A DNA stretch of 64,000 nucleotides from Combretum micranthum. Lineage: Eukaryota > Streptophyta > Magnoliopsida > Myrtales > Combretaceae. Below are positions 23,834 to 63,464 of this stretch, in pieces. How positions within the stretch are numbered: the first letter of the stretch is position 1; every line of letters begins with the position of its first letter. A program made the position numbers and the translations under genes. The notes below the pieces were generated by a model. The model was not told the DNA's origin and ran no database searches. It saw only the letters and a list, made by a program, of their open reading frames with translations. The stretch covers positions 310,001 to 374,000 of the forward strand of contig JAMXBD010000390.1 of the NCBI GenBank assembly GCA_024138025.1, given 5' to 3'.

Positions 23834-23848
23834 TTCTCCTCCTTTTTG
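23834..23848 (-). other. Polypurine tract of the copia element
   Basis: The complement reads AAAAAGGAGGAGAA immediately before the 3' LTR, preceded by GTTATCATC. This is the usual primer site for plus-strand DNA synthesis. A second similar tract (AAAAAGGGGGAGAAA, complement of about 23943-23958) lies about 110 bp farther inside the element. Confidence 0.75.
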
Positions 23849-23935
23849 ATGATAACAAAACATCTCTATCACTTAAAATTTATTATCATAGCAGCACATA
23901 AACACATTGTATAACAGCACATAACATATATTTCA

Positions 23936-25864: not shown

Positions 25865-25989
25865 AAACGAAATGCATGTATCATTTAAAAATCATTTCTT
25901 TTAAAGTTGTAGAGAACCGAGAAAAAGTAGGGGAAAGTTTTTAATGTTACATAAAGGAGGAGATAAAACACAATTTCCAAAAAACTTTT

Positions 25990-26578
25990 TCAAAATGGAT
26001 AACAAATTCCAATTTCATTTCTTATAAATTCAAATTTTAATTTTTCAAGGGGTTTAGTAAAAATGTCTGCCAATTGATTTTCAGTCGATACAAATTCAAC
26101 ATTAATATTTCCATTATTTACGTGATCTTTAATAAAGTGATGTCTGATTTTTATATGCTTTGACCTAGAATGATGCACTGGATTTTTTGTCAAGTTAATT
26201 GCACTTGTATTATCACATTTAATAGGTATATTTTTATAAAACCATAATCTTGTAATTGTTGTTTAATCCAAAGCATTTAAGCACAACAGTTACTAATAGA
26301 AATATATTCTACTTCTGCTGTAGACAAGGCAACAGAATTTTATTTCTTAGAGGACCAAGAAACTAATTTGTCACCTAGAATTGACAAGTACCAGATGTGC
26401 TTTTTCTATCAATTTTACAACCAGCATAATCTGCATCTAAGTAACCTATCAAATCAAAATTTTGATTTTTATGGTACCAAATGCCCAATTTTGAAGTATT
26501 TATCAAGTATTTGAAAATTCTTTTAACAACTGTCAAATGTGTGTTTGTTGGTGTATTTGAAATCTTGCACACAAACAT
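25990..26578 (-). pseudogene. Copia RNase H, interrupted
   Basis: 26375-26578 reads TVVKRIFKYLINTSKLGIWY and then GYLDADYAGCKIDRKSTSG, the copia RNase H core with its aspartates. 25990-26193 reads KHIKIRHHFIKDHV and QLADIFTKPLEK, the conserved C-terminus of copia Pol. The stretch between (26194-26374) contains stops. It is the end of the polyprotein; the extra ORF begins about 130 bp beyond. Confidence 0.85.
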
Positions 26579-27680: not shown

Positions 27681-27712
27681 ACTTCTGGAAGGTTAGATAT
27701 TTCAGATATAGG

Positions 27713-28879
27713 TTATGTACCAGTTTCTACTTTAGGATTGAAATCCTTTTCTTCATCTGATTCGTCATCCTTTGTATCTTCAACAAACTTAACATTAATT
27801 GATTCCTCAACAATATTTGATGATTTTTTACACACACGATAAGCACGACTATTTAAAGAATAACCTAAAAATATTGCTTCTTCAGATCTTTCATCGAACT
27901 TACCAAGATTGTGAGTAGTCTTTTTCACAAAACATTTAGATCCAAAAACATGAAAATAAGAAACAGTAAGCTTCTTACCTCGAAATAGTTCATAAGCAGT
28001 CTTTGATGTCATGGGTCGAATATACACTCGATTGATAATATAGCAAGCTGTAGATACTACTTCTTCCCAAAAATACTCAGCAATACCACTCTCATTTAAC
28101 ATAGATCTAGTCATTTCTTGTAAGGTTCTATTCTTGCATTCTACAACTCTATTTTGTTGAGGTGTATATGGAGCTAAGAAATTATGAGAGATACCATGTT
28201 CTTCACAAAAATTTATAAACTTTGTATTTTGAAATTCTGCTCCATGATTAGTTTAAAGACTAATTATAGAAATTCCTTTTTTGTTTTGTATCTGTTTTGC
28301 AAATTTTTGAAAAGAATCAAAGGTGTCCTTTTTATGTCGTAAGAACATAACCCAAGTATATCTCGAAAAATCATCAACAACAACAAATCCATATTTACAT
28401 CCACCCATGCTAAGAGTTCTAGTAGGTCCAAAAAGATCAAGATGCAACAACTCAAGAGGTTTTTTAGTTGATATTCCATTTTTACTTTTATGAGAAACAA
28501 ATACCATTTTATTTTTTAAACATGTATCATATTTCACATCTTGTTTAATATTTATTTTAGGTAATCCTCTTATTATATTCTTTTTAGCCAATTTTTCTAA
28601 GTGATTAAAATTAACATGTCTTAAATGTTTATGGCATACAAAGATAAGATCATTCATAGATAATAGACAGCATGCATCTTCAACTTTATTAGGTTTTATC
28701 ATATAAATATTCTTCTTTCTAAAGCCTTCAAATAGTTTTACACAATTTTCATTAAAAACAAAACATTTATCTTTTTCAAAAACCATTGTATATCCTTTAT
28801 CACATAGCTGACTGATACTTAATAAGTTATGTTTCAAGACTTTTACTAAGTAAACATTTTCTATAGTATGAGGAGGCAT
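27713..28879 (-). pseudogene. Copia integrase, interrupted, catalytic Asp lost
   Basis: 28253-28879 carries the pre-integrase zinc region (CHKHLRHVNF, then DTCLKNKM with the first Cys replaced by Tyr) and the first catalytic Asp in LHLDLFGP. An in-frame TAA lies at 28253-28255. Directly after it the second catalytic Asp of the usual SDxGxEF motif is Asn (codon 28247-28249, TNHGAEF). The Glu in PQQNRVVECKN is kept. 27713-28114 continues with the C-terminal part (FHVFGSKCFV, FLGYS) and ends at another in-frame TAA. It could not be active. Confidence 0.85.
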
Positions 28880-29060
28880 ACCAATTGTCCCAGTTGCTAC
28901 AATTTTACCTCTACTGTCATCGCCAAATATCCTTTTTCTTCCAATGTAAGGCTATTGAACAATGAAGCATTTCCTGTCATATGTCGGGAACATCCACTAT
29001 CAAGATACCATATTCCTTTGATTTTAGCTTCATGTTCCTGCAAAAACAAAAAGGATTAAA
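28880..29060 (-). pseudogene. Copia protease region
   Basis: Hand translation gives WYLDSGCSRHMTG, the copia retropepsin site; the DSG codons are at 28993-29001. A frame change near 28930 separates it from the integrase ORF. The plus-strand ORF at 28868-29059 is a shadow of this region. Confidence 0.75.
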
Positions 29061-29255
29061 TCTTTTAGGAACCCAAACAAGTTTGGGTCCTTTATAAGAC
29101 AAGCTCGTTTCATTTCTTTGTTTTACTTGTTGAGTACTGAGCTTGTTTCTTTTATAATAACAGTACTTTTCTATGTGACCATGTCTATTAGAAAAGAAAC
29201 ATATATATGTATTATTGTTATTCCAATACCTGTTGTTTACCTGTCTCCAACTGTT

Positions 29256-29469
29256 TTATCTTAGATAACTTCTGATATACCTTCTGGTATTGTATTGATA
29301 ATATCCATAAGAATGATTTTTTCTTTCTGAGTAACTTCTGATATACCTTCTGGTATTTGAAACAAACTTTCCTTTTTCACTATGCACTTTATGATCATTC
29401 TTTTTCACGTCAGATTCAACATTCACAACAGTTTTAGCATTCACATTCGATTTAGCTTTCATAGACACA
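29256..29469 (-). pseudogene. Copia gag-pol linker with short in-frame duplication
   Basis: The minus-strand ORF 29256-29636 ends with two copies of NTRRYIRSY. The DNA shows the word TAACTTCTGATATACC at 29266 and again at 29332, a period of 66 bp (22 codons), so this duplication keeps the frame. The linker is rich in Lys, Ser and Asn. Confidence 0.6.
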
Positions 29470-29815
29470 GTTTTCTTAGATGCATTTGAACTAGAACCAT
29501 GTTCATATCCTAAACCATGCTTGTCACAGGATAATCTTTGTGAAGAAATCAACATGTTTAATTTTTTATCACTTTCATTGAATTTATTGATGGTGTTCTT
29601 TACCAAATTAGATAACCCATCAATTTTTACTTTCAAAACATCAGTTTCTTATATGCATTTGAACTAGAACCATGTTCATATCCTAAACCATGCTTGTCAC
29701 AAGATAATCTTTGTGAAGAAATCAACATGTTTAATTTTTTATCACTTTCATTGAATTTATTGATGGTGTTCTTTACCAAATTAGATAACTCATCAATTTT
29801 TACTTTCAAAACATC
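29470..29815. repeat. Tandem duplication of 173 bp within copia gag
   Basis: The word TGCATTTGAACTAGAACC occurs at 29481 and 29654, and the sequence around it is nearly identical in both copies for about 170 bp. The encoded text FNESDKKLNMLISSQRL therefore appears twice, in ORFs 29256-29636 and 29633-30835. As 173 is not a multiple of 3, the duplication itself breaks the reading frame. Confidence 0.85.
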
Positions 29816-31138
29816 GGTTTCATTTTTTAACATGCTATTATCTTTTCTTATCTTTTCATTATCTTGATAAAATTTTTCATTGTCATGTTTTAAGATATCA
29901 TTTTCATCAGCAAGCAAAGCATTGGTTTGTTTCAAAGCATCTTTTTCATTCTTAGGAGACTTTATTTCATTATCATACTTAGCAACTTTTGTATCAGCCT
30001 TTTTAAGAGCTTTCAAAAGTTTTTCCATTTCAGCAATCATATCATCTTCAATTGATTCATCATCAGTTTTAGAAGTTACCTCAGAAGTAGCCATGAGACA
30101 AAGGTTTGCTTCTTCTTCATTATCACTTATAGCCTCTGAATCAGCTTTTGACTCATCCAAATCGCTCCAAGTTGCCATCATTGCTTGACTTTTCTTCTTG
30201 AATTTTTCAATCTTTTTTATTAAAACAAGGTACTCATATTTAATATGTCCCGGTTTTTTACATTTGTAACACACAATTTCTTTCTTCTCTTTCTTTTCCT
30301 CTTTGTCCTTATAGCTTTTTCCTGCATCAAATTTGTTAGATCTATTGAAACTTTTGAACTTTTTACCTTTCTTTTTCTTCAAGAATTTTTTGAATCTCCT
30401 TGTAAGCGTGTTAATATTTTTGTCATCACTGTCCTCTTCTGAATCAGATTCAACAACTCTTTTGGCTTTGAAAGCTATTGCCTTTGAACTATTTTCTGGT
30501 TCTTCAGTTGTATCATGATGTGACTCGTATGCCATCAGCTTTTCCCTTAACTGACTAAGTGTCAGGTTATTTAAATCTTGAGCTTCTTCTATAGCTGTCT
30601 TTTTGGCATCCCACGATTTTGGCAAAGTTTGAAGCATTTTCCTAACAAGATCAGAATCATCTAATTTCTTTCCAAGTAAGGTTAGCTCGTTAGTAATAGC
30701 AGTGAATCGATTAAAGGCATCTTTAGTTTTCTCATCAGATTTAATTTTAAATAATTCATAACGTTGAAGTAAAGCATTGATTTTTGTTTCCTTAATTGTG
30801 TTAGTTCCTTCATAAGTTTTTGAAAGAGTATTCAAAATTTCCTTTGCTTATTCACAGGAAGAAATTAGATAAAATTCAGAAGGAGCTATGGTTGTGAGTA
30901 AGAGATTCTTAGCCTTATTGTTCTTCTCAATCAACTTTAGCTCGTCATCTGTGAAACTAGCATCATCAGATATTGTTATTGGATTGTCTCCAAATTGGAT
31001 CACCTGCCAAGAAGCATAATCATTAGCTTTTATATAAGTTGACATTCGCATTTTCCAGTAAAGAAAATTTGAATCATCAAAATATGGAGCTCTATTGATT
31101 GCAATATTGTTCTCAGTCATTTTGTTTGGATCACTCAA
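29633..31138 (-). pseudogene. Sirevirus-like copia Gag, one internal stop
   Basis: The ATG at 31138 opens a copia Gag: RAPYFDDSNFLYWKMRMSTY is the N-terminal capsid motif. An in-frame TAA at 30848-30850 stops it after 96 codons. The same frame then stays open to 29633 (400 codons from the next Met), with LRSQLREKL-like helices, an acidic DSDSEED-type patch, the basic run KFLKKKKGKK, and a long coiled-coil C-terminus. The zinc knuckle at 30230-30273 reads CYKCKKPGHIKYEY, so its last Cys is Tyr. Gag packages element RNA; this copy is disabled twice. Plus-strand ORFs 29880-30188, 30245-30442 and 30333-30518 are shadows. Confidence 0.88.
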
Positions 31139-31155
31139 TTAGATAAAGGAGTATA

Positions 31156-31168
31156 GCTCTAATACCAA
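31156..31168 (-). other. Primer-binding site of the copia element
   Basis: The complement reads TTGGTATTAGAGC one base from the 5' LTR. Apart from one C-to-T change it matches the initiator tRNA-Met primer site TGGTATCAGAGC used by most plant copia and gypsy elements. Confidence 0.85.
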
Positions 31169-31169
31169 T

Positions 31170-32880
31170 TGTTAGTCCTGTTAAAATAATCAAGAGGGGA
31201 GGTGAATTGATTATTATATGAAAATTTTTGCCTCTTTTAAATAAAAACAAAATATTGTTGAAAACCGTGAGAACAACTAAATAAATAAAATGCAATAATT
31301 AAAAGATCAGAGTTAGAAGATCAGGCAGCAAAATATAGTGGTTCCACCTTATGCGTCAGTCCACTCTTTTAGCTCTACGCCAGGGTCCCGATTGTCTTTA
31401 TCGATGGTGTTTCACTATATCAAAATTCAAATGAGAGTACAATCAAGCCACCGTATTGGCAAAGTCTCACTATTGAGTCTCCTTAGCTTAAACTCTAAGC
31501 TAACACTCAACTATAGTGATAGATAACTCTCACACACTTCTCAAGAAGTAACAAATCTTTGAGCATTAAGAATATAAAGTTCCTCTACAAATTAAACTCA
31601 ATGAAATATATGAGTAGGCTGCTTTTTCCGGAAGAAGAAATTCTTCTTTTTATGCGAATCTGAATGCTTGTTCTTGTCTTTGCTTTTGATTCCTTAAATA
31701 TATCTCTTAATTACCAACGACTATTTTTGCAAAATTCGAAAAAATTCTTCTATTAAGAAATGATGGATAAATATGATGTGATCTTCTCTTCCTTTTCTGT
31801 TGTAATTTTAATTTTAATTTGAAATGATATAAACTATTATGATCTTCATCCAAGATATTAGATGTACCGACATCTTCTCTTGTAATCCTAACTTTGGATA
31901 AACTTGAAGAAATATTGTTATAACCACTGTGATCTTCTCTTCATATTTGAAACTGAGGTTATCATTCTTCACGGGATTTTCTAAAATGAAAAAAAAACTA
32001 AAAATATCTTTCTTTTTTATATATCTTTGCCGAAACGTAATCTTCCAGGTGAATTTTCAAAAATCAAATCTTTCTTATCTGATGTATGACATGATAAGCT
32101 TCAGTGGTTACTAAGATATTCTTGTCATAAGCTTCTTGATAGATTTGAACAAACAAACTTAATATTGTAATCTTTATCCCAAACGTTGGTTGTGATATTA
32201 AAAAAAATATGAAGACCTATTCTCTTGTAACAAACCTTATCCTTCATATCTTTACTTGTATAACAAATCTTATCATAGAAAAACATCATGATAATTTTGT
32301 CATAAAAAATAATTCATGCATTTTGGTAAAAACAATTTGAAAAATCAAATTATTTTATCTATATAGAAAAACTTGAAAACATCTTGATGTGATTTGATCC
32401 CCATGATACTAAATCCATCTGTAGTGTAATACATCAAGTATATTACCCAAATATACTTTGACAAGTAAAGTTGGGTCTTGACAAATATTAAAACAAAGTT
32501 TTAATCACTTTTAAGATTAAAAAAAAAAAAATCGTATCCAGCTTTAAAGGTTCAGAAACAGCTTCTGTTAACTTTATCTTTTATTGAAGAAGGTTCTGAA
32601 ACTATCTCTGACTAGCTTGATAAGCATATTTGTCTACTAACGTAAATTCTGAAAATGCTTCTGACTAGCATATATGAGTTTCACTGAAAGTTCTAAAAAT
32701 GCTTCTGAAAGACTTTCTTTAGATAACAAAGCTTAAACGAATCTTCTGAAATAACTTCTGACTTTATAAAAACTCATTTATACAACTATCAAAGGTTCTG
32801 AATAAGCTTCTGTTCAATCATACTTAGAAATAATTAATCTTCCTTTTGTTATCACCAAAATATTATTAGAGAACTTAATA
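31170..32880 (-). repeat. 5' LTR of the copia element
   Basis: It starts TGTTAGTCCTG and ends GAACTTAATA on the plus strand, 1711 bp. It aligns with 22165-23833 along its whole length with scattered substitutions and one 44-bp difference (TCTGACTAGCATATATGAG and following, near 32660). ORFs 31338-31526 and 31929-32114 lie inside it and are not genes. Confidence 0.88.
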
Positions 32881-33581
32881 TGACTTCTTAATAAAACCAA
32901 GAAGTAAACTAGTTTTCGAAGTTAAGATAAAATCAACTCACAATGTATAAACCCACTTAGAAAAATAAAGGTTGCCAAGTTTCTAAATGATATACCCGTT
33001 TTCAAAGAAATAAAAAGAATATAAAATTGATAAATTTAAAAAAAAATGGATATTATCCACAATATAAGAAAATATTGAAACATCATTTTCCTTCCAAGTA
33101 AAATTAGTAAAAGACTTAAAAGACCAGGTTTTTGAAACAAAATTTATTTTTGAAGAAGTTAGAAAATGAAAATATAAGAAGAAAAAGAATTTTTTATCAA
33201 AGCTATTTTTTTCTAGAGGAAAAAATATACAACCCAAATTATTATAGGTTTTCAACAACTTAATAACAATTTTAGAAATTTCATTTCTTATCACTAGAAG
33301 TAAAATTTTGTAGAAAATCAAAGTTAAGAAAAATTAACTTATTTTAGAAAAGAAATTGGAAAATAAAATAAGAATATACTCATTTATAACAACCCAAGAA
33401 TTTATGAAGTTCTTTCAAAACAATTAGAAAAGAAAATGGTAAATTCTATTTTTCAACACCATGAGATAAATTGCTTTATGGAAAATAATCGTTGAGACAA
33501 CACCATTAAATTTTGCATACAATATGAGACTATATATATGTATTCAAAAAATATTTTCAATCATATAAATATCTATATTTT

Positions 33582-39269: not shown

Positions 39270-42200
39270 TGTCACGCCCCAAAGGGTACCCTAAACGCGA
39301 CAGTCCACCACACCCGATATTTAAACTTAAGTATGACAACCTTAGTCATCCCATAAGTTTACATATCGAGTGTAAGGTGTACTCACACAACTTTTAGGAT
39401 CACACTTTGATTCGAGTAGTCTTAAGAAAGCACACATAGCATTAAGAATATAAATCACAGCAAGATAAATAGTCAAACTTTACAAAAGTCAAGGGGGCAT
39501 ACCCCCGTCAAAATAATAAGAGTCTACATCGTTTAGCTCCAATTACATATATCTGAATCTACAATAAAGAGATTTTCCAAGAAGTCCATGCCTATACTAG
39601 GTACCGACTTCCTCAAAAGCTCTTTAATCCAATGTGATAAACCTGCACAAAGTGTCCTCTTGGAACATCCAAAAATAGGAACACTGCAACAAAAACTATT
39701 CGGGTATAAACTAATTGCTTAGTGAGATTCATTTTCCAAGTAACATACTCGATCAAGCTAAAATATCTATACAAGCAAGTTATAATTAAGCAACCATATG
39801 AATGCACAAGCAAATGAGCAAGTAAGCATATAACTTTCCGGTAGTCATATGTGAATGGATTTACGCCCTCCATTCGGGGTTTGGGGTAGTTCATAAGTCA
39901 TGCAACTACAGTTCCAATGTTGGTCCATAAGACATGCAACCATAGTCCCGATCTTAAGTGGGGTGGTCCATAAGACATGCAACCACAATCTTAATGTTGG
40001 TTCATAAGTCATGTAACCATAGTTTCATTATTTGAATGGGTGGTCCATAAGTCATGCAACCCTAGTCCCCTTCATTAAAGACCCGCTGCCTCCCAAATAC
40101 ACCTTTGTCCCACCAAAGGCATACTCGACAATGATATGTGACTCACTACGTGATATACATGTACAATTTATTCATATAATCATGGTATATTAATTAGATA
40201 ATTTAAAAGTGACCATACAAATTTCAGACACTCCAAATCTATACTAGCTCATACAAGGTTATTGCAACAAAGCTTGCCTCGATATACTTATCGTTCATTC
40301 ATGCAAGTTTAGATCACCATTCAATCACAATTTTATCTTTTCCTAAGTCTAATGCCACTACTACTACAAGCACACCCAAGAGCATAATTAATTGAGAAAT
40401 GAACTCACTTGTCCATATAGTGAAATCCACTAGTCGTAATAGTCCTCGGGAATGGGTAACCCGTCCTCCAATTCACCTAAGTACAAAGAATACCCTCAAT
40501 GAGTATCTCTTATGAAGTTCTATTAAACATAACAATTTTATTTACTAAGTTCGTCAATTTTCGCCTAGGTTGAATTCTTAACTTAAAAAGGTCATATCTA
40601 ACTCATTTTAACTCGGAATTGAGCTTATAATATATCGATTTCTACCTACTTCGAAAGAGCTATCTATTTCCAAAGTTAATTCAAACATTTAAGGTCATTT
40701 AGGGGTCGGAAACATACTGTAGAGTAAGGTTGCGAAAATCTAGGATTTGAGCCTTTGTGAAAAATTGCCATATCTACTCTATTTAACTACTTAGACCAAC
40801 TTATTTTAGTCCTAAACTTGCAAGGAGATTCTCCAAAAAAAAAAAATTAAGAGATTACACACTTATCTAATCCCAAAGATAAAGTTCAAATGAAACTTCT
40901 AAAAATCCACTTTTATAAAACCGAAATTTACAAGTTGAAACTCATTGTCTTGTTTTGAGTAATTCCTTTCCTAAAACTTACTTAGTTCAATGAAAATAAT
41001 TTTCCTATATTATTTATCATCAAAGCATTCCATTTTCAATATAAAATACTTATTTTGAGATCTAAAAGAAGGTTTTCAAAATTGGTCTCCCCTCAATTAC
41101 GAATTTCCTCTTTGAAATTTACAATGAAAACAAAACCTAAATTTTGTCTTTTACAAAGCACTTGATTTAAGCAATACTTTTTAGGAAAACTCATTTAAAC
41201 TTATGAAAATTCATTCCTTAAGATATCTATACCAAGAGCCCTTTATATTTTTGTCTAAATCTTCATTTTAAAGTTGAATGATGGGTTCCAAAAATGGGTC
41301 TTGGTCTAGATCCGAATTTTCATAAATTCATTTTGAACATATCTCTTGAGAAAATTCATCAAAACTCATGAAAAACAACCCATTACATATTATATCTTAA
41401 GAACCCTTCATTTCTTGAATAAAATCCTCATTTTTGAGTTGGAAAACATGTTTTCATTTTAGATCTTTGTCTTGATCCGAAAATTGTATTTTTGTTTTTG
41501 AAAATAAACTTTGAAAATCAACTTTGATTCTTGTAAGATGAAGTCTTGATGATACACATCCATCAAACCTTCACTTTCTTAACAAAAACTTCCATTTTAA
41601 GACTTGGAAGAGGGTTTTTAACATGGTGCCTTGACAAGTTACGAATTTTACTTTTTTCATTCCAACTCAAATTTAAGATCCACTCAAAATACATCCATGA
41701 AAACATAAGAAAAGCTTGGTAGTAGGCCTTAAACTTCTAGATCTACACATAAACATAACTAAAGCTTTGTAAAACTCTAGATCTACAAGTTATCACAAAA
41801 ACAAGAAGATAAACAAGCCTTCAATATAACAAAATACTAAGAACAAAAGAGATCATCATCTAGAGGAGTGTTTCAATTTTTGGCATCATCATCCATAGCT
41901 TTTTAAGCTTGTGGAATGTCCTTTGATGCATGAAACATCCATAATATCATCCTATAACATCTTATGAGAGCTAAAAGAGAATGATTACCTCAAATATTTG
42001 CAAGAAAAGTATGTAAGAGTATGGGATGGAAATGATGGCAGCTTGTTTCTTAAGAAGACAAAGCCAAGAAGAAGAGAAAAGAAAGGGAAAAAGAGAGAGG
42101 AAAAGTGTAGGGTTTGTAAAGGTGGAAGAGAGATGGAATGAGATACTTAAATAGAGAGGAAAGTGTATTAAATAATTGAAAAAAAAAATAAAACCAATAG

Positions 42201-42988
42201 CTGCAAGGAGGGGGGCTGGCGTGATTTGCATTGTGTGGGGGAGGGTGTGTAGTTTGGTTTTAACTTGTATTTTTGAAAGTGTAACTAATTGCTTCCATAT
42301 CTAACTAAAAGAGACTTTAAAATATCAAATAAATAATTAAAAATAAGGAAAAAGTGGCTAATTTTTGGGGATGGTCAGCTGCCATCTTGGGAATTGGAGT
42401 GTAAGAAAAAGCAAAAGAAAACATAATAATGTAGTAATGATAATAGATGTGTACTTAAGGTATGGGTTGATAAAGTGCCTTTTGACTAAGAAAATATATA
42501 AAATAAATTAAGAAAAATATTTTTAATTAAGTGGCAGAATTTTTATGATTTAAATAAAATAATAAAATAAATTATTTTTAGAAATTTAACAATTAAGTTA
42601 CCGGTAAGAGTAAAATAAGCTTATATGAGCTATAACTGATATTTTTAAAATCCAAAAAATTATAAACTTGATATTTTTGAAATCCTTATAAAAATACGAG
42701 TGTAAAAATATTAAAGATATATTTTTAATTTTTCGAGCCCCAGGACACGCTTTCCAAAGCAGTATCCAAACGGTTCGAAATAAGCCGAAAATAAACCAAT
42801 CTGATATTTTTAATAAATCAAATATTATTACGGACTATTCTAAACACTTTAATTATTTTTCGACTCCTCGATTTACGAACTCAGGTTTGTCGGATCTAAA
42901 CTGTAGGGTTTTACTCAAGATCCGTTGACTTAAGATCTCCGATAGACTTTCCGGCTTAAGGTTATGGCTTAGAAAACAGAGGTTTACA
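39270..42988 (-). mobile_element. Solo LTR-like unit L7 (family L), nested in L6
   Basis: It starts TGTCACGCCCC and ends GAGGTTTACA, 3719 bp, with perfect TSDs CTCAC at 39265-39269 and 42989-42993. Removing it restores GTGACTCACAATTATG, as in L10 near 56333. It is nearly identical to L11, which lies inverted at 59756-63464. Minus-strand landmarks include a TATTTAAG box near 42150, a C/T-rich leader and a minisatellite at 39890. The ORF 41971-42231 has a counterpart in L11 (60474-60755) only because the DNA is shared; it has no known domain. Confidence 0.82.
39890..40070. repeat. Minisatellite in L7, alternating 34- and 43-bp units
   Basis: Units beginning TCCATAAGACATGCAACC alternate in length 34, 43, 34, 43, giving a 77-bp higher-order period, with a partial fifth unit. 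The array occupies the place where other L copies carry AGGAGCC-type or 31-bp repeats. Confidence 0.8.
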
Positions 42989-45286: not shown

Positions 45287-48200
45287 TATCACGCCTTATA
45301 GGGGTATCCTAAACGTAACAGTCCACCACATATTATATAAGACTCGAATTTCTATCGAGCCCTTCGGGAGTCTTGTATAGATGTAAAGCGTCCCTTTACG
45401 ACAATAGAATACTCTGTTCAATGGAGTTAAGAAGTTTAATGTGGCATTCGATAGCCATAGATAATAAACCAAAACACATACATAAATTACAAAGTCTAAG
45501 GGGCATTCCCCCGCAAAAGAATATTAAGTCCATTACAGTCATCTAGAGTCTTTTGGTTTCCTATGAAAATCTAAACAAAATCGAAATAAACTTCTAAGGG
45601 AAACTCCTAGCTCCAGTACCTGAGCTATAGCCTGCCTTGGCCTAAGCCAAATGAATTCGTAATGCAACAAGTAAAAACTATAGGGGCGTAAGCTAACTAG
45701 TTTAGTGAGTGAAAACTTCCATATCGCAATCAAGACAAATCATTCAAGCAAGTGATTATTCAATCAAGTGAAATGCATCAAACAAGTGAATTTAGCAAAC
45801 ATATGACCAGCCGGAAATCATATGTGGATTGAATTGCGCCCTCCATCCCAGGTTAGCAGATTAACGAATCTTGTGGTATGACGCCGTTTAAGCTCATGGT
45901 CAACTGAACAATAATTCATTTTATGGATCACGATTAACCAACATATTCGTTTTATGGATCACGATTAACCAACATATTCGTTTTATGGATCACGAAAAAC
46001 CAACATATTCGTTTTATGGATCACGAAAACCAACATATTCATTTTATGGATCACGATTAACCAACATATTTGTTTATGGATCACGAAAAACCAACAAATG
46101 CAAATGCTCCATCCCCATCGTGATATGAATGAGTTCAAACTCGCAACAATCAATTATAGCTCCTATCTATACAACAATGAATTATCACCCGACTTCGATG
46201 TTCTTTAATTCCGACTTCACATATCAACAGCAGTCACATATAATTCCCAAATACCCCATCATGCGTATTCATTTTTATCTTTGCCTAAGCAACAAATGCC
46301 ACTATCATTACAATCATAAGCAATAATTGAAATAGAAAGTAGTACTCACTCTATCATGTTACGCCGGTCTCTTAATAGTAGTAGTCGGGTGGTAGAGTAT
46401 CATCGTTCTTGGGATCACCTACCAAATAAGAATAACCTAATGAGAGCTTTATGACTTAACTAATTCAAGCTATGCATCTAAGCTAGACAAAATCGTGATT
46501 CTCGCTATTTGCGGAAGTTCAAACTTAAAACGGCTATAACTTAGTCATTTTAACTCGAAAATGCACAAATTTTATATCGATTTCTATCTAATTCAAAAGA
46601 TCTATATATTTCTAATATTATTTTCAAGTTTTGAAAACATTAAGGTCACAGAATAGAGGGATCAGATCTGTTCTGTAACTTTTCCATTTCCGAAAAATTG
46701 TTTTGCACTTAATCACAATGTTCCTAGTTGATGATTCATGTACAGATGGAATATGAATGACATGTAATGAGTTCAATATATACATGGTCTTGATGATTTT
46801 TGATAATGAAACCTTTAAGAACTTCTAATTATAACAAAACTCCACAATAGTCACTTAGTTAAAATCCATTCTTTCAAATTTTGCATCTCCTAGTGTTTTA
46901 GGATCTTATTCTTAGAATTTACTAGTTATCTAAATAAAAATGAGTCTTCATCATCTATACTATCCAAGACCTTCATTTCTACATAGAAATTCACATTTTT
47001 CACTTTGCAAATATGTTTTTAAACAAGCTTTTCACAAAAATCCGAATTTTGGGAAATTTCATTTCTTGCATATTTCTTATGAGAAAACTTGTTTAATGCA
47101 TTAAAATTTGAAGCTTTACTATACCTATTGTCTAAGGACTTCATTTAACACATAAAACTTGCAATTTGAGCTCAAATACTAGGTGATTACATATGCATCA
47201 TCTCAAATTACGAATTTGACAATTTGATCACTAACTCAAAATTTTCCATTTCAATTCCATTACTTGTTTTACACATTACTCATGCCTAAACTCATTTTAG
47301 CTTGTAAAAATCATTCCTTAGAGATACCTATCACATATACCTTTCATTTTTCAAGAAAAATATGAGTTTCAAAGTGGTTTCAAGGGTTTTTAAAATAGGT
47401 CTTGAAGTTCATCCGAATTTTCCACTAGACATTTCTAACAAAAATATTTTCTTTTCAAGTTCCTTGTCCTATAACCATAAAGATCTATCATCTAACACAT
47501 TTATATATATGCAAGGTTAAGCCTATATGATCATTAATGCATGAAAGCTCAAAACATCTATATGAACATAAATGTCAATAAAAATATGAGTGTCTAAACA
47601 CTAGAGCTATACCTTATAGTGCATGAACATGGGTTTAATGACATGAACATAAACTTTCCATGCAAGATCTCTACTTTATATACATGAACATGATATTATT
47701 CCAACAAAAAACTCATTAAACATAAGATTTACTTCTTGTGATGACTTGATATTCTTGTATTAGTGTTTTCCTATCCCTAGCATTTGCTCATTGGAATTTA
47801 AGGTGAAAAACACACAAGAATGGTCTTGCCATTACAAGATTGTGTAAGAACAAAGCTTGGAATCATCACTTAAATGAAGATTTGGAGTAGAAAAGAAGAT
47901 GAAATAAGCTTGTGAATGTGTGTGTGTGTGTGAGGAGGGTGTCATGGCACACTAAGGAGAGGAAGAGAGAGTTTTAACCTTTGTAAAAATTTTGAAGGAG
48001 TGAAAATGAGGAGAGAGAGAGAAAATGAGCTTATATATTAGAGGAATTAGGGTTTAATTGAATAAAAGAAGTAAAAATAAAACAAAAAGAGGGGAAATGG
48101 GGAGGGGGTGCGTCGACCATATGAGTGAGAGAGAGAGTGAAATTTGAATTTTTGATAAAATTTGTAATTTAAGTAATAAAATGTAATAAATGTAATAATT

Positions 48201-54372: not shown

Positions 54373-55567
54373 GCTTTGCTTGTCTTTAAGCAAATAGTTG
54401 AAGAGTACAAGATGAAAATTAAGACACAAGACTTAGGAAAAACAAATCCTTAATGGCACCCATAATCAAATCAACAAATTTCAGTTTTCAGCTCCTTACA
54501 CTCATCTACTCAAGTTGTTAGTAGTATCAAGGATCACCGTGCATTTTGCTCAATTCAATCCTACTATTATATGTATTCAAGTTACTAATGCAAGAATTTC
54601 AAAGCTAATCAAGGAAATTAACATTTCAACCTATTTCGTCCATTTATATTAAAAAGTATAAACTTCCTTAGTTACTTCTGTAAGCATTACACTTCAAAGT
54701 GAAGGCATATTCATTAATTTATACCCTAAATCTTTCTCCCCATTTGCACTTTCAACTTTCTTCTTTGTTTTTTTTTTTAAGATAGATAACATAGTTAATA
54801 ACGGGGTCGAATCATGTTCTTCTCATGAGCCAAGACACGCCTTTATGAACCAATCTTTTTTAGCTCATTTCCTTCTTGTTTTAGATATTGATTAGTAGTG
54901 GAGTCGAATCTTACACTTTTGAGTGATCGAAACCTACTCATACTAATTGAAACTTCTCTATAATACTTGCTTTTTAATTGATAGAAGGATCAAACAATCA
55001 CTCTTCTGAGGAATTGACACCCGCTTGAGCCAACTCAAGCATTCAATTTCGTATTTTCTATATGGTTATTTTCAATACAAGGGAAAAATCATCAAGTTAC
55101 AAATCTCATTTATACCTTTACAAACAACTATAAAGCTCTCAAAGCAACTAAATTGAAGAGTATATGAACCATTTAAGCTTAAAAATCAATTGAGTAAATC
55201 CTACTTAGGATCTTAAGTTAATTCTAAATCTAGACTCTTAGGTTGAATAACAAGACTAAACCACGTAGATTTTGCAAGGAAATTCCAACAAGGTAATAAT
55301 AATCTAAACATAAGAGATCAAAGATTAGCTTTAAGACTATAATCAACTAATTAACATTCTATTTCAATGAAGTGTGAAGTATAAACAACATCTGCTCTTG
55401 TGCCATTTCAAAGTTTTTCCAAAGTAGCAAACTTTGCTCAAGTGGGAAAAATTATAAAAATTTGGGTCATGTTCCACTATTCATTCATTTCTTTTCATGT
55501 ACTTCATTCATTTAATGCCCTTTCTCAAACTTTGCAGCTCATCGTAAAGGAAAAATAGAATTTTATC
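54373..55567 (-). other. Non-coding 3' internal region of the Tat/Athila-like element
   Basis: No long ORF. The stretch about 54640-54840 recurs at 63480-63660 (GGCATATTCATT, TAAGATAG, GAATCATG). Such long non-coding DNA between pol and the 3' LTR is usual in Tat/Athila elements. L10 is inserted at 55568. Confidence 0.45.
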
Positions 55568-57820
55568 TGTCACATCCTAAAAGGTATCCAAAATGTAGCA
55601 GTCCGTCACACATAACATTAAAGTTTATGAATGATAACATTAGTCGCGCAAGAGCTTTGATATTATGCACAAGGCGTGCTTCCAAGATAGTAGAAGACTC
55701 AAAGGAGTATTATGTTTAAGCAGATAATAAAAGCATGTAAGAATTTATAAAGATAATTATATAATAATCATTAAATTCAAGTTCTTACAACTTCTTAAGG
55801 GCATTCCCCCATTCTCAAAGTCTTGCTATTCTAAGCCAATCTTAAAAACATACATAAATATAACAAAGCCTACTATAGAGATTTTTCTTAGAAGTCTACA
55901 ACCAAAACTAAATATGTAAACTTCTTCCAAAAACTCCGAGTAACTGTGGCTCATACCTGACAAAAGGGACTCCTTGATGCCAATCATAAGTAATCAAACT
56001 GCAACAAAAAGCTATAAGGGTATAAGCAAAACTAGCTTAGTGAGATAACTCCCTTCTTCAAAACATTTTCATAAAACATACAAGTATTTTAGACAATCAT
56101 ATGTGAATGTAACAATCACATGAGAAATCAAGATACACACGATTAACCGAAAACTATTTGTAGCATGGATTTTACACCCTCTATGTCGAGGGTTAGGTGG
56201 TTACTGGCCTATTCGACAATCAATATTTGCAGACTTACTGGCTCCTACTTACCTATGTAGACTTCCCAGCTACTACTAGCCAACACTACAATTCCTCATT
56301 TCCCCACAAGAAGAATAGTAGTGAAAAAATAAATGTGACTCACAATATGCCATGCATGAATCATTTTTAATAGTGGTTTATCCAACTATTTTTAATTTCT
56401 AGTTAAAGGTTACCAAAACAATATTCGTTATACCATTGCAAGAGAACATAAATTATTCATCAAACCTTCTTTCGATATACTTAGCTTCTTATTTAACAAC
56501 CACTTCATTCAATCATGCATTCAATTCATACAACATTTATTCTTTTATCATTCTTTAATTTCTAGTGACACTACTTACAATCACATTCAAGGAAATGTAA
56601 TTAGTAAGGGATTAACTCACTCCATGACGATCACTCCTAGTCGAAATAATCTTCCACGATGGCGATACCGGTTCCTTCTTCACCTAAACAAGATGAAATA
56701 CCCAAAATGAGCCTTTTGTAGAATTTCTACTTAAAGATTCTAAATCTATCTTCTAATTTGAATTAAAAATCGGATTGATGGAAATTCCAACTTAAAATGG
56801 CCATAACTTGCTTATTTTAACTCGGAATTTCACATGTTATATGTCGTTATCTACCTACTCGAAAAGATCTATCCATTTCTAAGGTTATTTTTATTATAAC
56901 AAGTCATTTGCAACTCGGATCAGAGGGGTATAGATCTACCACGAAAATTCCCTTCTTTAGAAACAACTTTTTCTAATCCTTTCTTCACTCAAAGCTTGTT
57001 AATCAAAACTTAAATATGTCTATGGTTGAAAAGCAGTCCTTTGATACATAAATAGAATCATAATTTATGCATGATGCTATAGGTGTTGTCTTATTTAATT
57101 AATTTCCATACAACAAATTTTCCTAGGTCTTAAAAAAATTGGATTTATGGATAAACTTTTCTTTATGTGGTTGAAATAATCTTATAAATTCTTGGGTGAT
57201 CATAATTTAGTGTTCCATATTTTTATTCTTTAGTTTATCAAAAGTGAGTTGGAATAAAGTTTGGTCTTTTAAGTTTTATACCAATTTTATTTCTAGGAAT
57301 AAAAAAAAATAGTGTTTCAAAAATTTTCTTTGGTAGTACATATTGAGTTTATTCTTTTAAAAATTACTTTCTTGGATTGTTGACAACTTTCATTTTTCTA
57401 AGTGGGTTTCTAAGACTTATAAGTTGATTTTTCTTGAAAACTTGTTTAGCTCTTAGTTTAGAAATTTGGTAAAAATTTTGTCATAGTATCAAGTTATCAT
57501 CTATTTATCAAGATTTCCTATGTTGTCATTTGAAAAGAAATATCTTTAGACTTTGAAGAAATTTCTTCATCAATAGTTTGAAATTTCATGACGAGCTTAT
57601 ATAAACTTTTGAAAGGATTTTGTTAAAAACATCTTTTTAAGTTTTGGTGAAAAACATTTGTTAAGTGACAAAATTTTAAGAGTTCAGTCTTTCATAGAAA
57701 GATCTCTTTTTATTTAGACAACAATACATTAGCCATGCATGAATATGATTAGGTAGTTTATAAAAAGACAAGAATATCACAAAATAAGATAATAAAGAAT
57801 ATAAGAAACAAATAATAATT

Positions 57821-57898
57821 GTCAAGCATTGGGAGCCTTAGTTTCATCAAGGCTTCCTGGTCAAGCACTGGGAGCCTTAGCTTCTTCAAGGCTTCTCG
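57821..57898. repeat. 39-bp tandem duplication in L10
   Basis: GTCAAGCATTGGGAGCC at 57821 is repeated as GTCAAGCACTGGGAGCC at 57860, with the following CTTCAAGGCTTC words also doubled. Other L copies have the segment once (for example near 6122). Confidence 0.8.
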
Positions 57899-57914
57899 AG
57901 ACTAAATATAGACT

Positions 57915-58357
57915 TGTCACACCCCGCCCCCTCAAGCGACGGCGATGCGATGCCAGCGCAGGCAAACCCATCACTGCTCCTTAGTGATAATGGCCGACAC
58001 CACCATTGCATCATGGTGACCCCAACCAACGCATGCCCCGCAAGGTACCACGGGCACTATAGGTATTGTTACCCTAGGCAGAGTTGAACCCAGTCTGCAG
58101 CTCAATTGGTAAGAGGTGCTGCCTTTGGGGCAGGCAAAAGCCTTAGGTTTGGGGTTCGAATCCTAGAGGTTACAGACTGAGTTCAACTTTGCCTAAGGGT
58201 AACAATACCTATAGTGCCTATGGTACCCTATGGGGCATGCTTTGGTTGGGGTCACCATGATGCAATGGTGGTGTCGGCCATTATCACTAGGGAGCCAGTG
58301 ATGCGTTTGCCTGCCCTGGCATCACATCGCCATCGCCTGAGGGGGCGGGGTATGACA
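57915..58357. mobile_element. Foldback element with tRNA-like cap, 443 bp
   Basis: The element starts TGTCACACCCCGCCCCC and ends GGGGGCGGGGTATGACA. The left arm (57915-58097) and the right arm (58173-58357) are inverted copies, about 90% alike by eye, with roughly 20 differences, mostly transitions, and two single-base indels. The loop (58098-58172) is tRNA-like. Perfect 5-bp TSDs AGACT lie at 57910-57914 and 58358-58362. L1 (near 6172) and L5 (near 36225) show the empty site as TAGACTAGTCC. It is clearly GC-richer than its surroundings. TG...CA ends plus a 5-bp TSD indicate integrase-type insertion. There is no ORF. Confidence 0.85.
58091..58179 (+). other. tRNA-like sequence in the loop of the foldback element
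   Basis: The 7-bp acceptor-like stem CAGTCTG/CAGACTG is perfect and continues outward as the palindrome. A D arm (GCTC, loop AATTGGTAA, GAGG; 3 of 4 pairs) follows after two bases, as in a tRNA. The anticodon arm has 4 of 5 pairs and the loop CTTTGGG (anticodon TTG in the standard register). The B box GGTTCGAATCC (58153-58163) is an exact match to the Pol III consensus, and CAGCTCAATTGG (58098-58109) is a near match to the A box. The T stem is weak, the variable region is about 15 bases, and 6 extra bases precede the 3' strand, so it is not a working tRNA gene. Confidence 0.75.
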
Positions 58358-58796
58358 AGACTAGTTCCATAAGAAAAAGAAAATTATTTTGACTTGATGA
58401 GGATAATTCTAAGACTAGAAAGACTAGTTTTAAAATAGCATGAAAGTAAATAAATTGCAAGGAAGGTATTACAATGAAAATAAATAAATTGCAATAACAA
58501 GTGAGTTTATATGCTCTAAAAGATATATATAACTACATAGATATATTTAGTTAGATATATATATATATATATGAACAACATAATGGAAAATAGATTTATG
58601 AACAAGAACAAAGTATGAACATATTGTTGCTTTCCTATGCTCCATGGGTTTAGAAAACATACGCTATGTTCATATTAAGCAAATGAACATATAGAAAGCT
58701 TAGATTATTACCGATGGAAAAAGAGAAAAGTAGAGAGAACTATTGGAGAGAGTTTGTGAGAGTTTTGGTTTTGAAGGAAATGGAAGAAAGGGGTGG

Positions 58797-58804
58797 TATT
58801 TATA
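58797..58804 (-). promoter_or_regulatory. TATA box of L10
   Basis: The complement reads TATAAATA in CTTATAAATACCACC, 693 bp from the unit end, consistent with L1, L4 and L9. Confidence 0.6.
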
Positions 58805-59497
58805 AGAAAAAGTGGAGGATAATTTGTGATAATTAATTAAAAAAAATTAAAACAAATTGAATGTAAAAGAGGGAGGGCCGAGTGCAAATATTGAAGAGAG
58901 AGATGAGAAATATATATATATATATATTTTTTTTTTTTGTTAATGAAAAGTGAGATATAAGAGATGTGAAATTGTATTGGAAATGGAAATTGTAAGAAAA
59001 TAGGTGTATAGGTTGTAAGAATAGGTTGTAAGGAAAAGTAGAGATAGATGCATAGTGTAGAATAGTAATGAATAGTAAACAAGATAATTAAATTACCGAT
59101 AGTAATAAAAATACAAGTAAAAATGTTGTATTTGATATTTTTAGTTACTGAAAAATTACAAAACTGATATTTTTGAAAACCTTATATTTTCACGAGTCTA
59201 ATAGTATGTCCGGAATATTTTTACTATTCCGAGCCCCGATACACGTTTTTCGAAAACTATATCTAATCAGGTTCAAAACGAATTGTGGTTTGACTAATCT
59301 GATATTTTTAAACTCTCTTATGTTATTACGAACTATTCTAGATACTAATCTCTTACTTACTTACTTAGGTTTGCAAACACGGGATGGTCAGACTTACACT
59401 ATTGTGTCTAGCGAGGGCTTTGTTGGCTTTAAGGTATTCGGTTAACCTTCTAATTAAGGTTTAAGCTTAACTGATTGTAAAACTTTAGGGGTTTACA

Positions 59498-59755
59498 CTA
59501 TCAATAACATTTATATGAAGCACAAAAATTAAGGGTTAGAGGTGCTTTGTTAAAATCTTGGCATTTGGAGATGAAGTTCTTGCACTTAGGAGTTGAGCAT
59601 CATCATCCATTGTCGCGCTGTGAAGAACCCAATCTAAGATGTGGAGTTTAAAGTCATTAATGAGCATTTAAAGACCACAACTACACTAGGGAACACAACC
59701 AGAATCTAAAGTAAAAATTATCTAAAAGATCAATCAAAGTAGGAGAGACTCAACT
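59498..59755. other. Short host segment between L10 and L11
   Basis: A 258-bp stretch of the pre-existing host DNA, probably the same Tat/Athila-like element as 54373-55567. It ends in CAACT, the left TSD copy of L11. No ORF. Confidence 0.35.
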
Positions 59756-62700
59756 TGTAAACCCCTGTTTTCTAAGCCTTAACCTTAAGTCGGAAAGTCA
59801 ATCGGAGACCTTAAGTCAATGGATCTTAAGTAAAACCCTACAATTTAGATCCTGCAAACCCGAGTTCGTAAATTGAGGAGTCGAAAAATAATTAAAGTGT
59901 TTAGAATAGTCCGTAATAATATTTGATTTATTAAAATATCATATTGGTTTATTTTCGCTTATTTCGAACCCGTTTGGATACTGCTTTGGAAAGCGTGTCC
60001 CGGGGCTCGAAAATTAAAAATATCTTTAATATTTTTAGACTCGTATTTTTATAAGGATTTCAAAAATATCAAGTTTATAATTTTTCGGATTTTAAAAATA
60101 TCAGTTATAGCTCATATAAGCTTATTTTACTCTTACCGGTAACTTAATTGTTAAATTTCTAAAAATAATTTAATTGATTATTTTATTTAAATCATAAAAA
60201 TTCTGCCACTTAAATAAAAATATTTTTCTTAATTTATTTTATATATTTTCTTAGTCAAAAAGCCACTTTATCAACCCATACCTTAAGTACACATCTATTA
60301 TCATTACTACACATTATTATGTCTTCTTTTGCTTTTTCTTACACTCCCATTTCCCAAAATTGCAGCTGACCATTCCCCATAAATTAGCCACTTTTCATTA
60401 TTTTTTATTATTTATTTGATATTTTAAAGTCTATTTTAGTTAGATATGGAAGCAATTTGTTACACTTTCAAAAATGCAAGTTAAAATCAAACTACACACA
60501 CTCCTACACCACATGCAATTCACGCCAGCCCCCTCCTCCCTACAGCTGTTGGTTTTATTTTATTTTACCAATTATTTAACACACTTTCCATTCTATTTAA
60601 ACATCTCATTCCTTCCCTCTTTCATCTTTACAAACCCTACATTTTTCCTCTCTCTTTTTCCCTTTCTTTTCTCTTCTTCTTGGCTTGTCTTCTTAATAAA
60701 CAAGCTGCCCCATTTCCATTTCACACTCCCACATATTTTTCTTGCAAATATTTAAGGTAATCATCCTCTTTTAGCTCTCATAAGATGTTATAGGATGATA
60801 ATATGGGTGTTTCATGCATCAAAGGACATTCCACAAGCTTCAAAAGCTATGGATGATGATGCCAAGAATTGAAACACTCCTCTAGATGATGATCTCTTTT
60901 GTTCTTAGTATTTTTGTTATATTGAAGGCTTGTTTATCTTCTTGTTTATGTGATAACTTGTAGATCTAGAATTTTACCAAGCTTTAGTTATGTTTATGTG
61001 TAGATCTAGAAGTTTAAGGCTTACTACCAAGTTTTTCTTATGTTCTCATGGTTGAATGTTGAGTAGATCTTAGATTTGAGTTTGAATGAAAAAGTAAAAT
61101 TCGTAACTTGTCAAGGCACATTTTAAAAACCCTCTTTCAAGTCTTAAAATGGAAGTTTTTGTTAAGAAAATGAAGGTTTGATGGATGTATATCATCAAGG
61201 CTTCATCTTACAAGAATCAAAGTTGATTTTCAAAGTTTATTTTCAAAAACAAAAATTGTATTTTCGGATCAAGACAAAGACCTAAAATAAAAACATGTTT
61301 TCCAACTCAAAAATGAGGATTTTGTTCAAGAAATGAAGGGTTCTTAAGATATAATATGTAATGGGTTGTTTTTCATGAGTTTTGATGAATTTTCTCAAGA
61401 GATATGTTCAAAATAAATTTATGAAAATTCGGATCTAGACCAAGACCCATTTTTGGAACCCATCATCAACTTTAAAATGAAGATTTAGACAAAAATATAA
61501 AGGGCTCTTGGTATATATATCTTAAGGAATGAATTTTCATAAGTTTAAATGAGTTTTCCTAAAAGGTATTGCTTAATCAAGTGTTTTGTAAAAGACAAAA
61601 TTTAGGTCTTGTTTTCATTGTAAATTCAAAGTGGAAATTCGTAATTATGGGGAGACCAATTTTGAAAACCTTCTTTTTGATCTCAAAACAAGTATTTTAT
61701 ATTGAAAATGGAATGCTTTGATGATAATAATATAGGAAAATTATTTTCATTGAACTAAGTAAGTTTTAGTAAAGGAATTACTCAAAACAAGACAATGAGT
61801 TTCAACTTGTAAATTTCGGTTTTATGAAATGATTCTTAGAAGTTTCATTTGAACTTTATGTTTGGGATTAGATAAGTGTGTAATCTCTTAATTTTTTTTG
61901 AGAATCTCCTTGCAAGTTTAGGACTAAAATGAGTTGGTCTAAGTAGTTAAATAGAGTAGATATAGCAAATTTTTCACAAAGGCTCAAATCTTGGATTTTC
62001 GCAACCCTACTGTACAGTATATTTCCGACCCTTAAATGACCTTAAATGTTTGAATTAACTTTAGAAATAGATAGCTCTTTCGAAGTAGGTATAAATCGGT
62101 ATATTATAAGCTAAATTCCGAGTTAAAATGAGTTAGATATGACCTTTTTAAGTTAAGGATTCAACCTAGGCGGAAATTGACGAACTTAGTAAATAAAATT
62201 GTTAAGTTTAATAGAACTTCATAAGAGATACTCATTGAGGGTATTCCTTGTACTTAGGTGAATTGGAGGACGGGTTACCACTTCCCGAGGACTATTACGA
62301 CTAGTGGATTTTCACTACATGGACAAGTGAGTTCATTTCTCAATTAATTATGCTCTTGGATGTGCTTGTAGTAGTAGTGGCATTAGACTTAGGAAAAGAT
62401 AAAATTGTGATTGAATGGTGATCTAAACTTGCATGAATGAACGATAAGTATATCGAGGCAAGCTTTGTTGCAATAATCTTGTATGAGCTAGTATAGATTT
62501 GGAATGTCTGAAATTTGTATGGTCACTTTTAAATTATCTAATTAATATACCATGATTATATGAATAAATTGTACATGCATATCACGTAGTGAGTCGCATA
62601 TCATTGTCGAGTATGCCTTTGGTGGGACAAAGGTGTATTTGGGAGGCAGCGGGTCTTTAATGAAGGGGACTAGGGTTGCATGACTTATGGACCACCCCAT

Positions 62701-63464
62701 TCAAATAATGAAACTATGGTTGCATGACTTATGGACCAACATTAAAAATTGTGGTTGCATGTCTTATGGACCATCCCACTTAAGATTGGGACTATGGTTG
62801 CATGTCTTATGGACCAACATTGGAACTGTAGTTGCATGACTTATGAACTACCCCAAACCCCGAATGGAGGGCGTAAATTCATTCACTTATGACTACCGGA
62901 AAGTCATATGCTTGCTTGCTCATTTGCTTGTGCATTCATATGGTTGTTGAATTATAACTTGCTTGTATAGATATTTTAGCTTGATCGAGTATGTTACTTG
63001 GAAAATGAATCTCACTAAGCAATTAGCTTATACCCCAATAGTTTTTGTTGCAGTGTTCCTATTTTTGGATGTTCCGAGAGGACACTTTGTGCAGGTTTAC
63101 TACATTGGATTAAAGAGCTTTTGAGGAAGTCGGGACCTAGTATAGGCGTGGACTTCTAGGAAAATCTCTTTAATGTAAATTCAGATATGTGTAATTGGAG
63201 CTAAACGATGTAGACTCCTATTATTTTGGCGGGGGTATGCCCCCTTGGCTTTGTAAAGTTTAACTATTTATTGTTGTGATTTATATTCTTAATGCTACGT
63301 ATGCTTTCTTAATACTACTCGAATCAAAGTGTGATCCTAAATGTTGTGTGAGTATACCTTACACACGATATGTAAACTCATGGGATGACTAAGGTTGTCA
63401 TACTTAAGTTTAAATATCGGGTGTGGTGGACTGTCGCGTTTAGGGTACCCTTTGGGGCGTGACA
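59756..63464 (+). mobile_element. Solo LTR-like unit L11 (family L)
   Basis: It starts TGTAAACCCC and ends GGGGCGTGACA, 3709 bp, with perfect TSDs CAACT at 59751-59755 and 63465-63469. Read in reverse complement it matches L7 (39270-42988) almost base for base along its length. It shows the hairpin block near 62060-62160, the minisatellite at 62665-62847 and the dyad at 62886-62910. The 93-aa ORF at 60474-60755 spans the promoter/leader and has no recognisable domain; the ORF 63337-63528 crosses its end. Confidence 0.85.
62665..62847. repeat. Minisatellite in L11
   Basis: This is the reverse complement of the L7 array at 39890-40070, with the same alternation of 34- and 43-bp spacings between GGTTGCATGACTTATGGACC words. 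Array length is unchanged between the two copies. Confidence 0.8.

Follow-up and report, generated by a model that had tools for sequence, protein, structure and literature searches.

Helenus elements (TRIMp3; tRNA-containing TRIMs; Kojima 2024, PMC10886601) are short, non-coding units with a tRNA-like Pol III promoter, which show 5-bp target-site duplications (TSDs) in fungi and plants and are thought to be mobilised by proteins of LTR retrotransposons. They possess two direct LTRs, a PBS and a PPT. The only plant family in the main text of that paper comes from Selaginella, and the same text makes no mention of palindromic, inverted, foldback, self-priming or hairpin forms. Cassandra is a Pol III TRIM with a 5S promoter, whose LTRs are predicted to be mutually complementary in a super-hairpin; given this prediction (PMC7215508), it comes closest to a palindromic Pol III element among the systems compared. 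Furthermore, tandem TRIMs form arrays of units under one 5-bp TSD, among them a maize array of two inverted TRIMs (PMC4717578). The family described here shares with Helenus the 5-bp TSD and the idea of a Pol III promoter, whereas the LTRs of Helenus are direct and the ends of our family are inverted copies of one unit. With Cassandra and the arrayed TRIMs it has in common a putative Pol III-type promoter and arrays under one 5-bp TSD. In contrast, those elements follow the order LTR-internal-LTR with PBS and PPT, and their arrays are direct and include an internal domain. Arms re-made from a single template, variable fold-back sites and a palindromic spacer are not described for them in the relevant parts of the two papers (PMC7215508, PMC4717578). 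In the literature listed for the sequence strings, and for LTR-type elements of a palindromic, inverted, snapback or Pol III kind, no title or abstract opening describes such an element.

The copy from which the analysis started is located at 57915-58357 of the window, i.e. the whole stretch of 64,000 nucleotides of Combretum micranthum DNA that was analysed. It is a palindrome of 443 bp with arms of about 183 bp that are 90% complementary. When the window was compared with its reverse strand by BLAST, the palindrome was recovered with E = 7e-123, which confirms the near-perfect palindrome proposed by the sequence-only reading. The TG...CA ends (TGTCAC...ATGACA) and the perfect TSD AGACT, present on the left at 57910-57914 and on the right at 58358-58362 as read from the letters, likewise agree with that reading. 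The monomer unit, termed U, spans 58097-58357 on the plus strand (261 nt) and consists of a tRNA-like cap followed by an arm with the 3' end ATGACA; its boundary U1 is based on the head-to-head centres across the family. The cap itself (58097-58173, plus strand) contains no recognisable functional tRNA. Near its start lies CAGCTCAATTGG (58098-58109, plus strand), which we take to be A-box-like from its presumed consensus and which belongs to a region weakly conserved in the family. The exact B box GGTTCGAATCC follows at 58153-58163 on the same strand. The right, sense arm occupies 58174-58357 (plus strand, outer end GGGGCGGGGTATGACA), and the left arm at 57915-58096 is the antisense copy of the U arm on the minus strand (outer end TGTCACACCCCGCC). 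Two 7-mers close the cap: the acceptor-like 5' strand CAGTCTG (58091-58097, plus strand), where left arm and cap meet at the fold-back junction, and the acceptor-like 3' strand CAGACTG (58173-58179, plus strand), which is the family's hot spot of fold-back sites. The window copy may be regarded as one palindrome folded at this acceptor-like stem, and it resembles a tRNA with a closed acceptor stem because the hot spot coincides with the acceptor-like 3' strand.

The element sits inside a degenerate LTR-like repeat on the plus strand, one of several in the window, whose approximate limits (55567-59498) are based on piecewise self-BLAST matches, on its ends and on the empty sites. For the latter, the insert and one AGACT were removed from the locus and the remaining sequence was compared with paralogues in the window. 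Five paralogous LTR copies near 6.1, 19.0, 21.8, 36.2 and 44.3 kb have a single target at this point (AGACT, GGACT, AAACT, AGACT and AGGCT, in that order). Since all five hold only one target copy at the insertion point, the element moved as a unit, as had been claimed from the letters.

The genome to which the window belongs (1.86 Gb, 5442 contigs) was searched for further copies. This search, suggested together with the initial claims, gave 1407 first-look candidates, of which 40 were scored. Many of these are full-length at 85-90% identity; therefore, the window copy is more than a chance arrangement. We analysed 40 loci, namely the window copy (L001) and 39 fetched stretches. Among the 1407 candidates these match the full palindrome best, a choice that favours palindromic copies, and they stem from one genome. 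These loci contain 41 arrays, one of them a fragment in L025. A phage collection searched with the element gave no match, and the spacer pattern with its flanks had 0 exact matches in viral contigs.

Mapping arm and cap separately across the 40 loci revealed only caps, spacers and further arms between the terminal arms. The copied unit U comprises about 260 nt, cap then arm, and ends with GTGACA. Each palindrome is built head to head from an antisense U followed by a sense U, and holds either a single cap, whose orientation varies, or a head-to-head pair of caps. Where palindromes are joined tail to tail, the sole sequence separating them is an 18-bp palindromic spacer, TAAAAAGGCGCCTTTTTA. Such joints are lacking in 16 of the 41 arrays, single in 19 and double in six, so that 25 arrays have one or two. 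The flank pattern GACA + TGT identified 23 spacers, 11 of them exactly TAAAAAGGCGCCTTTTTA and the others close variants; truncated or altered joints occur in L012, L020, L036, L046 and L047. In L010, L018 and L028, for example, cap number and fold-back site are not the same in neighbouring palindromes of the array. Mini-palindromes of 40 bp, made of arm ends only, are spacer-joined to a full palindrome at L017:1471-1510 and L039:981-1020. The palindrome at L028:1467-1982 has 516 bp and is 99.6% self-complementary. Its halves differ only beside the centre, where U position 5 is C in one and A in the other, and this position also differs between the halves of several other double-cap palindromes.

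For 30 of the 41 arrays both ends were set automatically: TGTCA/TGACA was sought close to where the arms end, allowing one mismatch at most, and the end motif is therefore partly present by construction. Among these 30, 21 have an exact 5-bp TSD (mean of 0.72 after shuffling) and 25 have one with at most one mismatch (1.46), and exact duplications of 3, 4 and 6-9 bp were not enriched. A hand check of 19 loci added L039 (TSD TTACA) and L017 (one mismatch), both with mini-palindromes. In total, an exact 5-bp TSD is found in 22 of 41 arrays, and five more have one mismatch (27 of 41); the TG...CA ends and 5-bp TSD of TRIMs and Helenus are thus seen in these 22 exact and five one-mismatch cases. 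The sequence-only reading had proposed a mobile family with these properties and had named TSDs of other sizes as an argument against it; such sizes did not occur, the 5-bp length being the only one enriched. No 5-bp TSD within one mismatch was detected in the remaining 14 of 41 arrays (L010, L012, L014, L015, L019, L026, L029, L033, L036, L037, L042, L043, L044 and the L025 fragment), of which five (L012, L019, L026, L036 and L042) have one side where no integrase end can be recognised. The TSD encloses the whole array even when it consists of two or three blocks (L024, L027, L028, L047). Therefore, arrays were inserted in one step. A single TSD per array and the recurrent spacer also rule out two independent head-to-head insertions, and an assembly artefact is ruled out by the average difference of about 9% between arms and by the intact TSDs of most arrays.

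The hairpin had been taken for the mobile unit. This holds as far as whole arrays lie under one TSD, but the smallest copied unit, as judged from the mapped arrays, is not the hairpin but U, one cap plus one arm. The idea that the element is reduced from an LTR element found no support, as no usual direct LTR pair, PBS or PPT was recognised.

The relationship of the arms is informative on how palindromes arise. Between loci the mean arm identity is 0.879 (n = 8851); it is 0.885 for arms on either side of a spacer (n = 23) and 0.914 for the arms of one palindrome (n = 60), with no difference between same-side and opposite-side pairs. On a tree of 135 arms, left and right arms form no separate lineages, and cherries unite the arms of one palindrome in 20 of 60 cases, compared to 2 of 23 across a spacer, 0 of 7 for direct neighbours and 1 of 588 for random pairs. 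Two kinds of arm end could be distinguished: type B is found in palindromes twice as BB and twice as AB, whereas across spacers 6 of 24 typed pairs are AB and the rest AA; in L037 two palindromes mix arm-end types. From the cherry rates and arm-end types it follows that palindromes often derive from a single template at insertion, which gave both arms in at least a third of them, and that the templates linked by a spacer joint are mostly different ones. In adjacent palindromes, the same-side arms have a mean identity of 0.882 (n = 40), compared to 0.902 within these palindromes and 0.879 between loci. The within-palindrome advantage over same-side pairs amounts to 0.020 and is positive in 13 of 20 cases (P about 0.04). 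Other pair types in the same array exceed the background by 0.011 to 0.019 (same-side pairs by 0.011), versus 0.035 within palindromes. Some palindromes have arms as unlike as unrelated copies (0.80-0.86), and in L028 the perfect palindrome (99.6%) stands beside one at 0.911. Consequently, some joins were made between molecules or were inherited. Gene conversion between arms is disfavoured as the cause of their likeness, because no homogenisation is seen across the 18-bp spacer.

For the join points, 66 head-to-head palindromes were aligned to one real, young copy. One half begins at U1-7 in 56 of the 66. In 51 the palindrome is asymmetric, and 41 of these 51 keep a complete half (25 right, 16 left), while both halves are incomplete in 10 of the 66. 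The partner half of the 41 begins anywhere between U11 and U170, in 25 of them at 70-80. A complete half with a variable partner is as expected for a cDNA that reaches the 5' end of its RNA and then primes on itself, since its 3' terminus would be constant and its landing site would vary. A central deletion of an older symmetric palindrome is disfavoured, since it should trim both halves. The two halves overlap by at least 2 nt in 22 of the 41 asymmetric joins and by at least 4 nt in 12, compared to 8% and 1.8%, respectively, of U positions that exactly match the cDNA 3' end over these lengths, two measures that are close rather than identical. Seven joins have no overlap and eight contain extra bases; in all these counts the cases are not fully independent, as some junctions may be inherited. 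The fold-back hot spot, GTCTGC|AGACTGG, corresponds to the cap's acceptor-like 3' strand. In the nine direct joins, where one sense U follows another, the upstream boundary lies in or just after the spacer in seven and the downstream boundary at U1-6 in eight; six show both features. Such joins would be given by end-to-end jumps between RNAs. Taken together, the asymmetric junctions, the kinship of arms and the direct joins point to an RNA whose cDNA would snap back on itself.

We consider it somewhat probable that a Pol III-type RNA is reverse-transcribed, folded back and inserted by an LTR-type integrase. The family would then be a non-autonomous retroelement in which U has a tRNA-like head and, at its 3' end, the sole integrase-type end GTGACA. 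U would be transcribed from its internal promoter, and transcription would stop in the T run of TAAAAAGGCGCCTTTTTA; the junctions suggest RNA-like 5' and 3' ends of U. The self-complementary 3' ends of two such RNAs could pair and prime reverse transcription, in which case DNA synthesis starts beside TGTCAC. At the 5' end of U the cDNA 3' terminus (...CTGC-3') would fold back, anneal to a short matching stretch, of which the acceptor-like GTCTGC is the most frequent, and copy its own strand; alternatively, it would jump to the 3' end of another RNA. For this step the junctions and the shared arm ancestry are seen in the arrays, and the enzyme is presumed. The product would be one or more spacer-joined palindromes with an integrase end on both sides, which an LTR-type integrase, provided by a putative helper, would trim to TG/CA and insert with the 5-bp duplication; both the ends and the duplications are those observed. 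Counting against this model are the 14 arrays that lack a 5-bp TSD within one mismatch, the 10 palindromes with two incomplete halves, the 15 joins with no overlap or with extra bases, the palindromes with arms as unlike as unrelated copies, the weakly conserved A-box-like region and the caps that the Rfam tRNA model does not match.

Several features bear on whether U could give a Pol III-transcribed RNA. The B box, noted in the loop from the letters alone, is exact in 55 of 69 U copies and ranks 17th in conservation among 249 11-mers of U, whereas the A-box-like region ranks 193rd of 249. The sense strand contains TTTT in 2 of the 69 complete U copies and the antisense strand in 67 (expectation from composition 35.6), counts that are descriptive as the copies are related and not independent. 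The spacer supplies a T run to either neighbouring U. For the spacer RNA, an intermolecular dimer is predicted at -22.5 kcal/mol, compared to -1.3 kcal/mol for the hairpin, and this predicted dimer fits joints that link different templates. On this reading, U would be transcribed by Pol III. Pol III usually starts about 10-20 nt upstream of the A box. Since U begins at the A-box-like stretch, an RT stop or a processed end must be assumed there, and U1 may be either.

The cap, described as tRNA-like from the letters, is only loosely a tRNA. ARAGORN found no tRNA in the window, and the Rfam tRNA model has no match to the window copy at E<=10, nor, in 15 of the 39 fetched loci, to any cap at E<=1, so a functional tRNA is not supported. 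Among the 39 fetched loci, ARAGORN assigned tRNA-Pro to the cap in seven and tRNA-Gln or tRNA-Ser in two more. The cap fold is unremarkable (z = -1.56). A tRNA-Asp-like sequence (ARAGORN; Rfam tRNA 35.4 bits) at L030:655-729 lies in the flank, outside the element. As for a miRNA precursor, Rfam MIR matches score under their curated thresholds and in many cases appear on both strands, which would be true of any palindrome; they were not accepted as real. One example is MIR477 with a score of 64.8 against a cut-off of 65 at L021:1176-1269, and similar matches lie at other double-cap centres, often on both strands. These near-matches are probably a generic hairpin effect.

The main rival of the foldback model is a TRIM with palindromic LTRs and a Pol III promoter (TRIMp3, Helenus- or Cassandra-like) that uses ordinary LTR reverse transcription. 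The LTR would be the whole palindrome of about 443 bp and the internal region the 18-bp spacer, so that arrays correspond to L2I1 and L3I2 and single palindromes to solo LTRs. TG...CA ends and a 5-bp TSD are as expected for such an element. According to the accounts cited above, a tRNA-like promoter is present in Helenus (PMC10886601), tandem TRIM arrays are known, including one in which a single TSD encloses two inverted TRIMs (PMC4717578), and the predicted super-hairpin of Cassandra RNA with its mutually complementary LTRs (PMC7215508) provides a precedent for a palindromic LTR. We nevertheless regard this explanation as rather unlikely. The 'LTRs' of one array should be near-identical at birth, yet same-side arms reach only 0.882, versus 0.902 within palindromes and a background of 0.879, an objection that is not absolute as same-side pairs keep an excess of 0.011. 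Adjacent palindromes are also unlike in cap number and fold-back site (L010, L018, L028), and neither the direct U-U joins nor the 40-bp mini-palindromes are predicted. The two direct terminal repeats that are co-born at insertion in TRIMs and Helenus are absent here, the terminal arms being inverted. A PBS for tRNA-iMet, using what we take to be its sequence, was found in 0 of 41 arrays.

Long terminal inverted repeats could also indicate a foldback/MITE-type DNA transposon with an integrase-like transposase, whose arms are kept alike by gene conversion. Ginger-type elements indeed have TGTNR ends, with duplications of 4 bp (Ginger1) or 5 bp (TDD-4/5), according to the part of PMC2836005 concerned with them. 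This origin seems quite improbable to us, because left and right arms form no separate lineages and gene conversion should act at least as strongly across the 18-bp spacer, where only 2 of 23 pairs are cherries. The RNA-like ends of the direct joins and the overlaps at fold-back sites are not explained by it, and nothing but caps, spacers and arms lies between the ends in the 40 loci. Unlike these transposons, our family has arms that are often re-made per insertion. The alternation of head-to-head and tail-to-tail joints, both palindromic, would be in line with a linear DNA that has hairpin ends, either a replicon or a strand-displacement intermediate, and that concatenates in both ways and then integrates. 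In that case, arms across a spacer should be as alike as those within a palindrome, which contradicts the observed 0.885 versus 0.914, and the variable fold-back sites and direct joins would still need template jumps; we consider such a replicon highly improbable.

SINEs have TSDs of variable length and A/T-rich tails. As in tRNA-derived SINEs, U has a tRNA-like head and an unrelated tail, is about 260 nt long and shows almost no TTTT in the sense strand. It differs from them by exact 5-bp TSDs and TG...CA ends, and it is at least partly inverted-dimeric in the loci sampled; a variable TSD together with a simple 3' tail was not observed, only the 5-bp length being enriched and the CA end being defined. 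Foldback/MULE elements, hAT elements and PIF/Harbinger MITEs duplicate 8-11, 8 and 3 bp, respectively, and these sizes do not agree with that of our family. As far as the features tested tell, the family is neither a SINE nor a foldback/MITE DNA transposon, and it lacks the co-born direct repeats of a TRIM. Judged by its ends and duplications, it works like a client of LTR integrase and would stand among the non-autonomous clients of LTR retrotransposon machinery.

Tentatively, and with somewhat less than even confidence, we propose a separate class of retroelement, distinct from both SINEs and LTR elements. Its one-ended RNA with a Pol III head would become competent for integrase only via foldback of the cDNA. 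The palindrome would be a product of mobilisation and not inherited, the acceptor stem would serve as primer site for the second strand, and two RNAs paired at the palindromic terminator would start the first strand. Single palindromes would then be dead ends, and only arrays that keep a spacer would be active. If the foldback model is true, a SINE-like RNA with one integrase end parasitises an LTR-type integrase by foldback instead of LTR strand transfer, and each genomic copy records template jumps of reverse transcription, so that the sequence by itself reveals in which order the strands were synthesised. It would also explain how plant genomes can come to contain long near-perfect hairpins flanked by 5-bp duplications. 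Long near-perfect hairpins are strong sources of small RNAs.

With regard to a possible helper, the terminus TGTCACRCCCC is exactly common to the element and the start of an LTR family, four in the window and one in the flank of L042. These five sites compare to 0.05 expected in 144,133 bases, although copies of one family count as one event. This large LTR family starts with TGTCACGCCCCAAAGGGTACCC. Two of its solo LTRs, each of 3.7 kb, at 39270-42988 and 59756-63464, are in opposite orientation, 94.6% identical and flanked by the TSDs CTCAC and AGTTG. They contain tandem repeats of 77-78 bp at 39882-40061 and 62674-62855. A decayed Ty3 chromovirus at 11495-15378 (minus strand) retains pieces of zinc knuckle, protease, RT, Tf2-type SH3 and chromodomain; its integrase is below the Pfam cut-off, and no LTR pair flanking it was found in the window. 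An LTR retrotransposon at 22164-32881 has direct LTRs of about 1.7 kb that start with TGTTAG and are 92% identical, and the open frames between them look copia-like by eye. In addition, a 31-bp tandem repeat with six copies (ATTCGTTTTATGGATCACGATAAACCAACAT) is located at 45914-46096.
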